Below are positions 14,381-33,652 of a DNA stretch of 64,000 nt, in pieces; position 1 is the first letter of the stretch, and each line of letters opens with the position of its first letter. The position numbers were made by a program, and so were the translations under genes. The notes under the pieces are model-generated. The model saw nothing but the letters and a program-made list of their open reading frames with translations. It searched no databases and was not told where the DNA came from. Origin of the DNA: an uncultured Pirellula sp. (lineage in GTDB: Bacteria > Planctomycetota > Planctomycetia > Pirellulales > Pirellulaceae); assembly GCA_903858115.1 (NCBI GenBank), contig CAIOHR010000073.1, positions 62,001 to 126,000 of the forward strand, given 5' to 3'.

Positions 14381-14450
14381 TGCTAGGTGCTAGGTGCTTG
14401 GTGCTTGGTGCTTGGTGCTTGGTGCTTGGTGCTTAGTGCTTGGTGCTTAG
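14381..14450. repeat. Heptanucleotide tandem repeat (TGCTTRG)10
   Basis: tgctagg x2, tgcttgg x5, tgcttag, tgcttgg, tgcttag, in perfect 7-bp register. Confidence 0.95.
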
Positions 14451-14458
14451 TGCCCGCT

Positions 14459-14607
14459 TGACTTAGGCACGGTCGACAAAAGTCAAAGTAGTAGGCACAT
14501 TCCATGTGCCGTCCACCAAAAATCCCACCCCAACCAAGAATCCCACCCCATGGCGATGAGCGGACGGCACGACGGAGCCGTGCCCGCTAGCTTTGGCAGC
14601 GGTGTCA
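14459..14607. repeat. REPIN-like inverted doublet of a hairpin-bearing repeat
   Basis: Two inverted arms each starting TTGAC..., each with a GGCAC-type hairpin followed by GTCC (GGCACAT-TCC-ATGTGCC at 14494-14510; GGCACG...CGTGCC at 14566-14584). Confidence 0.7.
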
Positions 14608-15231
14608 ACTTGGCGAGGCAGCTTTTGCTCGGTTGTAAAGATAAGGGTTGAGTGTCGGATCGTTGTACATTTTGAACTGTCGATACGTTCGGTGTTTTTT
14701 GACGCCAGCATACATGTCTTCCAAAAGCTCCTTCAATGAATCACTAAGTTCGGCATGTTGAAGACGACAGATCGCGATGCGTTGACTAACCTTTTCGATG
14801 TGCGCATCGTTGATGTCCGTTCGTTGCAACTGTTCATCCAAATGATAGATCCGAAGCGAAATGATCGAGAGCCGATCGATCGTACTACCCGGTGTTTCCG
14901 TGTTGAGTTTGGCGTCCGGTCTACACTGCACAAATCGTGATTGTAGATCATCGCTGAGCCAATCATCTACTTTTTCTATCCAATCGTTTCGAAGCTGATT
15001 GTATCGGTCAATATTTCGTTTCACATTTGCAATCTGCGCATCTGTGACGTCGGGACTCCTGGCGATGTCCTCTTCGTGCCATAACAAATAGTTGTACTGG
15101 TGTTGTTGGCACGCGATCGCAAGCACCGAACGAGTTTCTCCTTGTTCGACGAAGGGATTCGTTACTGGTTCTCGATGCCACAACTCGATGGTTCGAATCT
15201 GCATGGCAAGTATTTCGTCTATATGCAACAC
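14605..15231 (-). CDS. DUF4254 family protein
   Basis: 208 aa; TIELWHREPVTNPF... NYLLWHEEDIARSPDVTD motifs. Confidence 0.85.
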   Translation of the reverse strand: MLHIDEILAMQIRTIELWHREPVTNPFVEQGETRSVLAIACQQHQYNYLLWHEEDIARSPDVTDAQIANVKRNIDRYNQLRNDWIEKVDDWLSDDLQSRFVQCRPDAKLNTETPGSTIDRLSIISLRIYHLDEQLQRTDINDAHIEKVSQRIAICRLQHAELSDSLKELLEDMYAGVKKHRTYRQFKMYNDPTLNPYLYNRAKAASPS

Positions 15232-28930: not shown

Positions 28931-30319
28931 TCACTTCGTTTCCGTCCCGCTCTCGTCGGTGTACCGTGGGCGGATTAATAAAACCAATGCGACAGAGACC
29001 AAACAGATAACTGCGAAAACGCCAAAAATGGTCGCTGTCGGGACTTCTTGATCCTTCAAAACCCCAAATATCTTGTCCGCAAACCCTCCACAGGAAATGC
29101 TGACCATGTTCATCAATCCATAACCTGTCGCACGCAAGTCAGGACGTACGATTTGACATAGGATGGGCATGTTGTTGCAATCAAAAACCCCCCAACCTAT
29201 CCCAAACAAAATCAATGCGCCAATCGCCATGGTCAAAGTCCCACCATTGGTCGCATATCCAACCAATACTAGCGCTGGGATAATCAAAGACATGCCAAAT
29301 GCGCTCACATAAATTCGCCCTCGCGGATTATGTTTCATCCAAACATCGGCCCATGCGCCTCCTCCCAAAGCTGCTACGATTGCTGCCAATTGCCAGTAAA
29401 GCGTGGCTGAGACTCCCGCTTTACCCTGCCCAATCTGAAAACTATCCTTAAGAATGGATGGCATCCAATCGCGAATGACCCAGCCAGCTAAGGCCGGCAA
29501 CGTAAAGTAAGCTACCAACAACAGGAACGATACGTTCGTTATCAATAGCAACAGGGACTTGAGCAGTCGCAACAAGGATGCAAGAAATCCAGTTGCGGCC
29601 GAATCTGAGCCTGATGGATCCGCTTCGTGCCTTACGTCACGCAGCAATGCAAAAAGTGGTATCGCGTAAACAATGCCAAATATCCCTATCCAACGAAACG
29701 ATCCTCTCCATCCCAAATCAGGCCAATCAGCCGCATACCCCGCGAATCCACCCAAGATCACTCCGCAGTATATTCCCATTTGGTGAATGCCAATCGCTCG
29801 AGATCGCGTACTCCCCGTGTGATAATCCGTGATCATGGCCAGCGCAGCCGGAATATAGAATGCTTCACTGACCCCCATAAAGGTTCGTGTCCACAGCAAA
29901 CCTTCGTATGTGGTCACCGTGCCAGTAATGAAAGTGATCAGTGACCAAACGGCCAAACTACAACATATCGTGATTCTGCGACTGAACCTATCAGCAATCA
30001 ATCCGCCGATCGGACTGAAGAAGGCGTAGACCCACTTGAACTGCCCGAGCATGTGCCCCCAATTCGTGTTCTCATACTTTTTTTTCAAGTCCTCCGAGGA
30101 CTTTGCGGTTTCGCCATTGGCATTATTGGCATTATTGGCCGATTGTTGCTCTGCCGATCCTCGCTCGGCTGACATGGGAATATCAGCGATCACCGAAGAC
30201 TTCATCGAGGAGATCATTTGCCGATCCATGTAGTTCAGCAACGCTACAGGAAATAGCAATGCAACGACGAGCCAAGCGGTGGATACTGGCCTAGAAGATT
30301 CGCTTTTGGAGAAATGCAT
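28931..30319 (-). CDS. MFS transporter
   Basis: 462 aa; about 12 TM helices; GLIADRFSRR motif. Confidence 0.9.
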   Translation of the reverse strand: MHFSKSESSRPVSTAWLVVALLFPVALLNYMDRQMISSMKSSVIADIPMSAERGSAEQQSANNANNANGETAKSSEDLKKKYENTNWGHMLGQFKWVYAFFSPIGGLIADRFSRRITICCSLAVWSLITFITGTVTTYEGLLWTRTFMGVSEAFYIPAALAMITDYHTGSTRSRAIGIHQMGIYCGVILGGFAGYAADWPDLGWRGSFRWIGIFGIVYAIPLFALLRDVRHEADPSGSDSAATGFLASLLRLLKSLLLLITNVSFLLLVAYFTLPALAGWVIRDWMPSILKDSFQIGQGKAGVSATLYWQLAAIVAALGGGAWADVWMKHNPRGRIYVSAFGMSLIIPALVLVGYATNGGTLTMAIGALILFGIGWGVFDCNNMPILCQIVRPDLRATGYGLMNMVSISCGGFADKIFGVLKDQEVPTATIFGVFAVICLVSVALVLLIRPRYTDESGTETK

Positions 30320-30466: not shown

Positions 30467-31132
30467 CTAAACCGTCTTCTTGGGACGTCCACGTGGTCGA
30501 ATGGTCGATTCTAACTTTAACTTTGCGACTATCTTTTGAACCCACGATGCATCTCCGTAGGGACAGCCTCTTTCAACGCAGTTTTCCAGTCGATCCAAAA
30601 TTTCTTGGCTCAACGGCGACTGGACATGCTTCAACCAATCGACGGGAATCGCGATCGGAGGTGAAGCCATCCAGTCCGGTAGTCTTTGCTGCGAACGATC
30701 ATGATGACTCGACCAACGGTACGCCCCTGCTATCGACGATTTCTTGCTGTTCCCCAAACTTTCGACAAACTGGATCGCTTCCAGCAATCGTTCATTATCT
30801 TGAATCGGGTACGATCGGAACCGACGTTCGTAGAGCCCCCCGACGGCTTTTCCCTTCGAGACAGCTTTACGGCGCATCGAGTGGACCGAGGTTAACCAAC
30901 CCACCCACCGGGATAGGTCTCCATCGCGACGTGGAACGAGAATCGCAGACCATCTCTTGGGTTGCAGACAATACGCGAGCAGCCGCGGCTCGAGTTTTTC
31001 CACCGACTCTTTGAAGAGCCCCTTGAACGCTTCGAAGTCTTCGTCGTTGCGAAAAAGAACTTTGCCGCACAAACCTCGGCAATCGACAGCGTAAACGAAG
31101 CCGCCTTCACTAATTCGAGGGGAGCGTCCCAT
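30467..31132 (-). CDS. RAYT (REP-associated tyrosine transposase)-like protein with degenerate catalytic motifs
   Basis: Start reassigned to MGRSPRISEGGFVYAVDCRG; DGDLSRWVGWLTSVHSMRRK, GGLYERRFRSYPIQDNERLL, YRWSS, IRPRGRPKK C-terminus are RAYT-like; HUH position reads KRWS. Confidence 0.85.
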   Translation of the reverse strand: MGRSPRISEGGFVYAVDCRGLCGKVLFRNDEDFEAFKGLFKESVEKLEPRLLAYCLQPKRWSAILVPRRDGDLSRWVGWLTSVHSMRRKAVSKGKAVGGLYERRFRSYPIQDNERLLEAIQFVESLGNSKKSSIAGAYRWSSHHDRSQQRLPDWMASPPIAIPVDWLKHVQSPLSQEILDRLENCVERGCPYGDASWVQKIVAKLKLESTIRPRGRPKKTV

Positions 31133-31133
31133 G

Positions 31134-31679
31134 CTAGTTCCAACTCGGATCCACGGGGCAAGTGTCTGTACTCGATTCGACAATCGCATTCCCGATCCGC
31201 TTCACCATCGACTCCCAGCAATCTTCATCGGCCAATATCTCTAACGAGCTAATCTCGGAAACCAGCCAACCACCGGCTTCCAATTCCGATTCCAATTGCC
31301 CTGGTCCCCAACCTGCGAAACCATCAAACAGTTTGAACTTCACGTTCGGCTCCGAAAAAAGCTTTTTGAGCTCTTCTTGGTCGGAAGTTACAAACAATTC
31401 GTCGTTGAATCGATGCCCGCCGAAGTTATCGCTGTCGTGGATTGCAATCAACGGTCCATCCACGGGACCGCCACAATAGAGCGGTGCATTGTGGACGCAA
31501 TCGCACTCGCAAACCATCGTAACAACTTTGTCGAGCCGAAAATCGGTAGGACGATTGAGTATGAGTCCGAAGGTCTCTTCCTCGGAATGTTGAAGTAACA
31601 AAACGACCGATCGAAAAAAGTTGCTATCGTCCATGAAAGGCGATGCCAACAGACATTTACCAGCGAGTGACTCTGACAT
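31134..31679 (-). CDS. YqgE/AlgH family protein
   Basis: 181 aa; LAGKCLLASPFMDDSNFFRSVVLLLQHSEEETFGLILNRP; FDGFAGWGPGQLESEL. Confidence 0.93.
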   Translation of the reverse strand: MSESLAGKCLLASPFMDDSNFFRSVVLLLQHSEEETFGLILNRPTDFRLDKVVTMVCECDCVHNAPLYCGGPVDGPLIAIHDSDNFGGHRFNDELFVTSDQEELKKLFSEPNVKFKLFDGFAGWGPGQLESELEAGGWLVSEISSLEILADEDCWESMVKRIGNAIVESSTDTCPVDPSWN

Positions 31680-31693
31680 GGTTTTAGCTTTTC

Positions 31694-33652
31694 CTAATCG
31701 TGCACGGTCTCCTGGACGATCGGGTTCTCGACTTGTAGTCGAACCATCTGGTTGTAGATTCCCGACTGTGCCACGAGTTCGTTATGCGTACCTTGCTGAA
31801 CAATCTCCCCTTGATCCAAGACGAGAATTTGGTCGGCATTCATAATCGTACTCAATCGATGAGCGATGACAAACGACGTCCGGTTTTTTAAAAGATCCGC
31901 CAAGCTTTTTTGAATAGCTTTTTCGCTTTCACTGTCTAAATTGCTGGTCGCTTCGTCCAAAATGAGGATCTTCGGGTCTGCCAAAATCGCACGAGCGATT
32001 GCCAGCCGTTGTCGTTGCCCACCACTCAGCTTAAAGCCTCGTTCCCCGATCCGAGTCTCATACCCCTTGGGCGATTGCCGAATGAAATCATCGGCTGCCG
32101 CCGCTTTGGCCGCCGCAATGATCGACTCCTCGGACGCTCGCCGTTTCCCATAAGCGATGTTCTCGGCAATTGTTCCATCGAACAAGAAAACATCTTGCTC
32201 TACGACTCCCAGCAGCCGCCGATAGGAATGCAATTGCAAATCGGTCAAATCGACACCATCCAGTTGGATGCCTCCACGGTCTGGGTCGAAAAACCGAGCG
32301 ACTAAATTGCAGAGTGTGGTCTTTCCCGCACCGCTTCTACCAACGATGGCAACGGTGGTGCCTGGCTCCGCGACAAAACTAATGTCTCGGAGGATCCACG
32401 ACTCGTTCTCAGGATAGCGAAACCAAACGTTGGAGAATCGAATCTGCCCCGAAGCCTCGCTCCGTTGTACTCGTTTGGCTCCCGAACGATTCTGCAATTC
32501 TCGAGGAGTTGCGAGCAAATCGAGAATTCGATCCAAGCCGGCCAGGTTGTTTTGAAACTGAACCGCGCTCCCTGTCAGTGTTGCAATGGGCCCCAACAAC
32601 ATCGTCAGATAGACCAAAAACATCATCAGATCTCCTAGCGTCAACTGATTTTGCAAGATCTGCCAACCGCCGTATACCAGCAGCGACGTCGATGCCAATG
32701 GAATGATCACTTCCCAGATGATCTCAATAAGTCGCGTTCGCCACCAAACCAGCAATTGCTGACGCACCAGAACGTGGCTCCACCAGGTAAATCGCTTGCT
32801 CTCGCTTCGCTGTCTCGCGAAGGTTCGAACCACGCGAATACCTCCAAACGTTTCGGTCGTATTCGAATCGACCATTTGTCGTCGTTGACGCACGTCCCGA
32901 TAGAGAGGGCGAATGGCATAGATCCATGTGCGATGACTAAAGTACACGGCAGGCAGCAACAATAGCCCAGCTGCCATCAATCTCCAATCCACGAGGACCA
33001 AGATGATAAAGCTGCCGATCAATTGCACGATCGCTTGCCATGGATTGTAGATCATGCTGAAGACCAACTCAGCAATCCCCCCCGCATCCTCGCGAATCAA
33101 GCTCGTCGCGCCACCCGATTTGAGCTGCTGAATTTTGTGCAACGGTAACTCGAGCATATGTTCGAACACGCGTCGCCGGATCGACATTTGAACGAGATTC
33201 ACGACTTTGGTGCAAAGCCAGCGACCGTACAAGTAAATGACCGTCCGCAACAATGTGACGATCGCTACCCCGACTGCGATCAAAACCAAGATCATCAGTG
33301 GTGTCGGCGATCCCAGCCAAGTTGTCAGCCAATCAGGCAAAGGGGCAGGGGGAGAAGTCAACGCAGAGTCGATAGCGATTTTGGTTCCAAAAGGCGGAAT
33401 GAGGGCCAAACCCGTCGATATTGTGAGGGTAACTAACCCGATGACGATCTGAAGATGGAAACCACGGAGCAATCCCCAGAACGCTTGAAACAATCGCCAA
33501 AAGGATCGATGCGAACGAGATACGAGCGCATCTTTCTCCTTGCCGCTCATCGTGGCGTGGTACGAATCTGTCTCTCGCGAATGCTTGCTTTCTTTGCGGC
33601 GTTCGGCGAGCGATTGGGTATAGGACTGGTATTCCGATTTGCTGGTCGGCAT
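31694..33652 (-). CDS. ABC transporter, fused permease/ATPase
   Basis: 652 aa; GRSGAGKTT, LSGGQRQRLAIARAIL, ILILDEATS. Confidence 0.93.
   Translation of the reverse strand: MPTSKSEYQSYTQSLAERRKESKHSRETDSYHATMSGKEKDALVSRSHRSFWRLFQAFWGLLRGFHLQIVIGLVTLTISTGLALIPPFGTKIAIDSALTSPPAPLPDWLTTWLGSPTPLMILVLIAVGVAIVTLLRTVIYLYGRWLCTKVVNLVQMSIRRRVFEHMLELPLHKIQQLKSGGATSLIREDAGGIAELVFSMIYNPWQAIVQLIGSFIILVLVDWRLMAAGLLLLPAVYFSHRTWIYAIRPLYRDVRQRRQMVDSNTTETFGGIRVVRTFARQRSESKRFTWWSHVLVRQQLLVWWRTRLIEIIWEVIIPLASTSLLVYGGWQILQNQLTLGDLMMFLVYLTMLLGPIATLTGSAVQFQNNLAGLDRILDLLATPRELQNRSGAKRVQRSEASGQIRFSNVWFRYPENESWILRDISFVAEPGTTVAIVGRSGAGKTTLCNLVARFFDPDRGGIQLDGVDLTDLQLHSYRRLLGVVEQDVFLFDGTIAENIAYGKRRASEESIIAAAKAAAADDFIRQSPKGYETRIGERGFKLSGGQRQRLAIARAILADPKILILDEATSNLDSESEKAIQKSLADLLKNRTSFVIAHRLSTIMNADQILVLDQGEIVQQGTHNELVAQSGIYNQMVRLQVENPIVQETVHD

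Follow-up and report, generated by a model that had tools for sequence, protein, structure and literature searches.

What holds a transposase-like gene open across species once its catalytic residues are gone? The question is raised by a RAYT-like gene directly downstream of the widespread gene yqgE in an uncultured Pirellula sp. The window analyzed here is a stretch of 64,000 nt (G000:C73:62001-126000) from a source assembly of 7.9 Mb (G000). The features that bear on the answer are collected in Table 1. We refer to the gene and its product as the dead RAYT, to its orthologues directly behind yqgE as linked copies, and to family members elsewhere as unlinked relatives.

Table 1. Coordinates of the dead RAYT, its motifs and the genes upstream of it, in window positions
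Feature	Position	Strand	Basis
RAYT-derived protein, catalytically dead, third in the ABC transporter-yqgE-RAYT run	30467..31132	-	ORF of 221 aa + stop; homology, fold model, omega
Former HUH motif, now R60-W61-S62	30947..30955	-	Alignment to 4er8 and relatives
F122-V-E-S-L126 in place of Y-x-x-x-N; catalytic Tyr and metal-ligand Asn gone	30755..30769	-	Aligned with Y115 and N119 of 4er8
Basic AT-hook-like C-terminal tail RPRGRPKK	30476..30499	-	Present in linked copies and active relatives
yqgE/algH (DUF179), directly upstream of the dead RAYT	31134..31679	-	PF02622, 120 bits
ABC transporter (membrane + ATPase), heads the conserved run	31694..33652	-	PF00664 + PF00005

A RAYT-derived protein directly downstream of yqgE

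The original prediction described an uninterrupted frame of 222 codons that begins 1 bp after the yqgE stop codon, and did not state the strand. The description is accurate for the minus strand, where the frame comprises 221 codons plus a stop and its ATG lies 1 nt past the yqgE stop. The 3′ end of yqgE (GGAAC-stop) may provide a ribosome-binding site for the gene. Candidate sigma-70 promoters and terminators near the dead RAYT occurred at chance level only, and an Rfam search gave no match.

The frame was also said to follow RAYT organization from end to end, and full-length homologues, a profile match and a fold model all agree that the organization is RAYT-like over the whole length. The protein is homologous along its full length to a family widespread in the host's taxonomic class, and a profile of 58 family members matches E. 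coli TnpA-REP (PDB 4er8; E 9.5e-9). The AlphaFold model (pLDDT 88.8, pTM 0.87) has as its top PDB match in Foldseek the same structure, which is TnpA-REP bound to a REP hairpin (E 1.4e-6, prob 1.00, TM 0.70 by target length). The dead RAYT is a RAYT-derived protein by descent: it shares with RAYT/TnpA-REP proteins (class 2 Y1 HUH transposases) a core homologous end to end, and the RAYT fold is confidently predicted to be kept. Two family models score it below their cutoffs, PF01797 with 12.6 bits (cutoff 23) and the curated NCBI model NF047646 with 15.2 bits (cutoff 80). Because catalytically intact relatives also fall under the NF047646 cutoff (67–69 bits versus 80), the miss is weak evidence against active RAYT status.

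Foldseek additionally returned Thg1 tRNA-His guanylyltransferases (E 1.6e-3 to 7e-2), ranked under the top transposase matches and probably reflecting a common core fold. An IS200-type Y1 transposase whose motif reads DHVHLL (L001, G000:C73:34184-34525) is encoded on the same contig, about 58 kb away from the dead RAYT; a tblastn search with the dead RAYT as query gave no significant match to it.

Loss of the catalytic set in linked copies

We located the catalytic positions with a family-profile alignment, which maps the HUH motif, Y115 and N119 of 4er8 to columns 60/62, 122 and 126 of the dead RAYT. Where active RAYTs have His, His and, within Y-x-x-x-N[P/A], Tyr and Asn, the protein reads R60, S62, F122 and L126. 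The earlier reading, that both HUH histidines are gone and that the catalytic Tyr has become Phe, is therefore correct at the 4er8 columns. It missed that the metal-ligand Asn is lost too, a residue that the 2018 survey, in the passage concerned, gives as the third metal ligand in this transposase class (PMC6006769), and that other linked orthologues retain HUH yet have lost Tyr and Asn. Displacement of the HUH motif or the Tyr to another part of the protein was checked and is ruled out, as there is no H-x-H in the entire protein and no Tyr in helix 113–129, the expected site of the catalytic Tyr.

The comparison set consists of 115 distinct intact unlinked relatives and nine complete linked copies, the copy in G017 being cut by a contig end. 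The full His-His-Tyr-Asn set is found in 111 of 115 unlinked relatives versus 0 of 9 complete linked copies, a contrast that represents one evolutionary lineage, as the linked copies form one clade, so that a Fisher value overstates its independence. By column, the unlinked relatives have H60 in 115/115, H62 in 114/115, Tyr in 112/115 and Asn in 115/115; Tyr remains in 1/9 linked copies and Asn in 0/9. Columns 60/62 read H/H in six complete linked copies, R/S in the window and G023, and Q/L in G006. Seven linked copies (these six and the partial one in G017) keep HWH, but their Tyr has become Phe and their Asn has become His. HUH is lost from the copies of the window, G023 and G006, in which Leu replaces Asn. 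Tyr persists at the catalytic column of the G006 copy, which has no metal ligands, and Tyr loss among linked copies is consequently not strictly universal.

Four isolated unlinked RAYTs (L158, L200, L042 and L160) each carry a single catalytic change (one Y to F, two Y to H, one H to Y), and their frames are otherwise intact; these are possibly independent inactivations.

Gene neighborhood and phylogeny of the linked copies

A check of its conservation found the ABC transporter-yqgE-RAYT arrangement in 10 of 13 close species, the single-contig complete genome G006 among them. In these 10 same-genus genomes, one per species, the orthologue lies directly downstream of ABC transporter-yqgE and the same reading frame is open; the transporter stands upstream of yqgE in every one of them (75–97% identical), and the gaps between yqgE and the RAYT are 1, 3, 18 or 79 nt. 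As the gap is only 1–18 nt in nine of the 10 genomes, the dead RAYT probably shares a transcript and translational coupling with ABC transporter-yqgE.

In a 67-protein tree the linked copies form one clade (100/100 support), and their tree matches the yqgE tree except for G016. Three members of the same 13-species clade (G012, G002 and G003) have the ABC transporter and yqgE and lack the dead RAYT. On the yqgE tree this distribution needs three changes, which we interpret as a single gain followed by two losses (one in G012, one in G002 + G003). Because yqgE was kept through both losses, the dead RAYT is not essential. Two family searches of 243 genomes yielded no yqgE-linked copy outside the genus among the matches listed.

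The conserved, operon-like linkage would also fit a protein that acts mainly through contacts with other proteins, such as YqgE or the transporter, and has lost nucleic-acid binding; a passage of PMC6006769 proposes such contacts for the extensions of class 2 TnpA proteins. We consider this explanation unlikely, since yqgE and the transporter persist without the dead RAYT in G012, G002 and G003, and since the protein retains its basic residues and RPRGRPKK tail.

A C-terminal fragment of about 60 aa (L218, G023:C49:61340-61513), nearly identical to the linked copy of G023, lies elsewhere in that genome and is a partial duplication. It is the one real case among the candidate standalone C-terminal mini-genes, which we rejected as a class; most were truncations of multi-copy RAYTs at contig ends.

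Purifying selection after catalytic loss

The strength of selection was determined from pairwise GY94 fits. The window–G023 pair, in which all four catalytic residues are gone, has an omega of 0.126 at a dS of 0.85, with 2ΔlnL = 104.5 versus omega = 1; the gene is consequently selected, not decaying. Constraint extends along the protein, as omega is 0.08–0.12 across its three thirds. Omega is 0.065 for G024–G021, 0.065 for G022–G024 and 0.19 for G009–G015. Across orthologues, pairwise omega thus spans 0.065–0.19 with no relaxed selection, a range drawn from few close pairs, deeper pairs being saturated at synonymous sites. Catalytically intact or near-intact relatives give comparable values (mostly 0.07–0.18; the saturated comparator pair L021–L041 was left out), and yqgE is more constrained than the dead RAYT in the four pairs of linked copies named above (0.02–0.12).

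A transposase fossil in decay, still open by chance, perhaps owing to its position 1 nt behind yqgE, would account for the lost catalytic residues and for a gene missing in 3 of 13 close species. However, the window copy differs from that of G023 by the dS given above with no stop or frameshift in 221 codons, neutrality is strongly disfavored in this pair, omega is low in each third of the protein, the frame is open in 10 species, and new invariant residues have been fixed. We find this explanation highly improbable, and reject a pseudogene under relaxed selection because low omega coincides with an open frame common to all 10 species.

Selection could instead maintain a different metal enzyme, in which HWH and the His that replaces Asn form a possible three-His site, with water replacing Tyr, and the window lineage later lost even that. 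H60, H62 and H126 are conserved in 6/6 complete HUH-retaining linked copies, whose omega is 0.065–0.19. This scheme leaves unexplained the window lineage (R60/S62/L126), which is nevertheless under purifying selection, and appears to us quite improbable.

Altered recognition residues and the distribution of REP elements

The nine complete linked copies also share changes outside the catalytic set. All nine have changed the beta-1 Asn (position 18) that is otherwise universal, have Gly at position 99 where active-type relatives have His, and have Arg for Gly at position 103. At column 102, which corresponds to the GTAG-contact residue Q95 of TnpA-Ec, 113/115 unlinked relatives have Gln, and all nine linked copies have another residue. 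Residues that are invariant in the linked clade and rare in active-type relatives include S8, L21, E48, P49, G99, R103, S125 and P158. Basic residues and the C-terminal domain are also retained in the linked copies, and R212, G215, R216 and P217 are retained in both the linked and unlinked groups; the AT_hook Pfam model scores the dead RAYT at 13.8 bits, below its cutoff of 17.4.

The original prediction pointed to REPIN-like hairpins in the same window, at 14459–14607, and proposed a co-opted hairpin-binding protein. The hairpins belong to a real dispersed repeat: window positions 14458–14610 hold a GTAG-tagged palindromic REP (GTAGGCACATTCCATGTGCC) with an inverted partner. The family has at least 40 matches in G000 and 31–39 in each of G009, G015, G017, G021 and G024. 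Tandem TGGTGCT-type units occupy positions 14385–14450, directly before the element. Nothing ties the repeat to the dead RAYT. The REP family is absent from G006, a complete genome that has the gene, and occurs in G013 and G001, both of which lack any match to the dead RAYT query. Between positions 30300 and 31750 we found no inverted repeat beyond a 12-nt imperfect palindrome, the core of the window's GTAG hairpin does not occur near the dead RAYT, and no REP core stands beside those PF01797 loci of G000 that were examined.

A dead protein that binds REPs or REPINs, perhaps as an antagonist covering REP hairpins or inhibiting active RAYTs, would agree with the fold match to TnpA-REP in complex with a REP hairpin and with the abundance of GTAG-tagged copies in the window's genome. 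It would also agree with a mutant of a relative, ISDra2 TnpA Y132F, crystallized in complex with its recognition and cleavage site (PDB 2xo6, as listed by Foldseek). However, the GTAG-contact Gln is replaced in every complete linked copy and kept in nearly all unlinked relatives, the REP family is missing in a genome with the gene and present in two without a query match, and the matches listed for 5 of the 10 linked genomes include no other family member at E ≤ 1e-30, which speaks against an antagonist. We regard a REP-binding role as rather improbable.

Given the REP-family distribution and the lost Gln, REPIN binding is unlikely to be the reason for retention, and this half of the proposal is not supported. 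The other half, domestication after catalytic loss, stands on a single clade in 10 species, low omega, one gain with two losses and a conserved linkage. Because GTAG-recognition residues have changed, the canonical GTAG REP is probably no longer the target. As a caveat to the case against REPIN binding, group 3 RAYTs are described, in a passage of PMC8266576, as tolerating GTAG changes in binding. The dead RAYT may bind some other hairpin or nucleic acid.

Discussion

We think it likely that the gene encodes a domesticated RAYT that is catalytically dead and passed on vertically, and whose role is non-catalytic and probably involves binding nucleic acid. Phylogeny and synteny support that a RAYT from a family whose catalytic site is intact elsewhere in Planctomycetia was fixed a single time, directly behind yqgE, before the 13 species of one clade in this Pirellulaceae genus diverged. 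It was then inherited vertically, probably as part of one transcriptional and translational unit with ABC transporter-yqgE, while its catalytic site eroded: Asn is gone from 9/9 complete copies, Tyr from 8/9, and HUH also from the window's three-species lineage, the order of these losses being a presumed one. Purifying selection has kept the predicted fold, the C-terminal domain, the RPRGRPKK tail and many of the basic residues, as clade-specific residues became newly fixed. The fold and the basic residues suggest that the protein most likely binds nucleic acid without cutting it, through the old hairpin/DNA surface and the basic tail, and acts as a regulator or structural factor. Laboratory mutants make such a binder plausible: Tyr-to-Phe proteins are dead, TnpA-Ec Y115F having served as a catalytic mutant (in a passage of PMC8266576), yet the ISDra2 protein was crystallized with its site.

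Domesticated RAYTs are already known, and described RAYTs show the single-copy, vertical behavior seen in the dead RAYT clade (both points from Bertels 2017, as cited in a passage of PMC8266576). Described RAYTs differ from the linked clade in retaining HUH, Tyr and Asn and, in many cases, an association with REPs; the linked copies have lost the catalytic set and have no adjacent REP. The unlinked Planctomycetia homologues (L041, L018 and L022, for example) are about 31–42% identical over the full length and share the C-terminal domain and tail. They differ in their mostly complete catalytic sets, in being multi-copy in several genomes, and in lacking yqgE linkage among the matches listed. 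The 2018 survey set motif-less proteins aside as probably non-functional and chose the complete ones (PMC6006769). Within the titles, abstract openings and selected passages that our literature search covered, we could identify no paper on a RAYT lineage that is catalytically dead and under selection.

TldR proteins are nuclease-dead and derive from the TnpB of IS200/IS605-type elements. TldR is presented, in the part of the source concerned, as a transposon-derived protein that acts as an RNA-guided transcription factor (PMC13418256). The comparison is an analogy only, as TldR is RNA-guided and of the TnpB family, whereas the dead RAYT derives from TnpA. More tentatively, the stepwise-eroded HUH/Y1 lineage behind yqgE could be a dedicated host nucleic-acid-binding regulator, and in that sense the TnpA counterpart of the nuclease-dead TnpB regulators.

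RAYTs have been called domesticated, yet the described ones keep their catalytic site. The lineage behind yqgE remains under selection without a catalytic site, which would separate binding or scaffolding from cutting. Living relatives preserve the intermediates, with seven copies that have HUH and neither Tyr nor Asn, and three that have neither HUH nor Asn. More such genes may exist, since a survey that filters for HUH and Tyr would pass them over.
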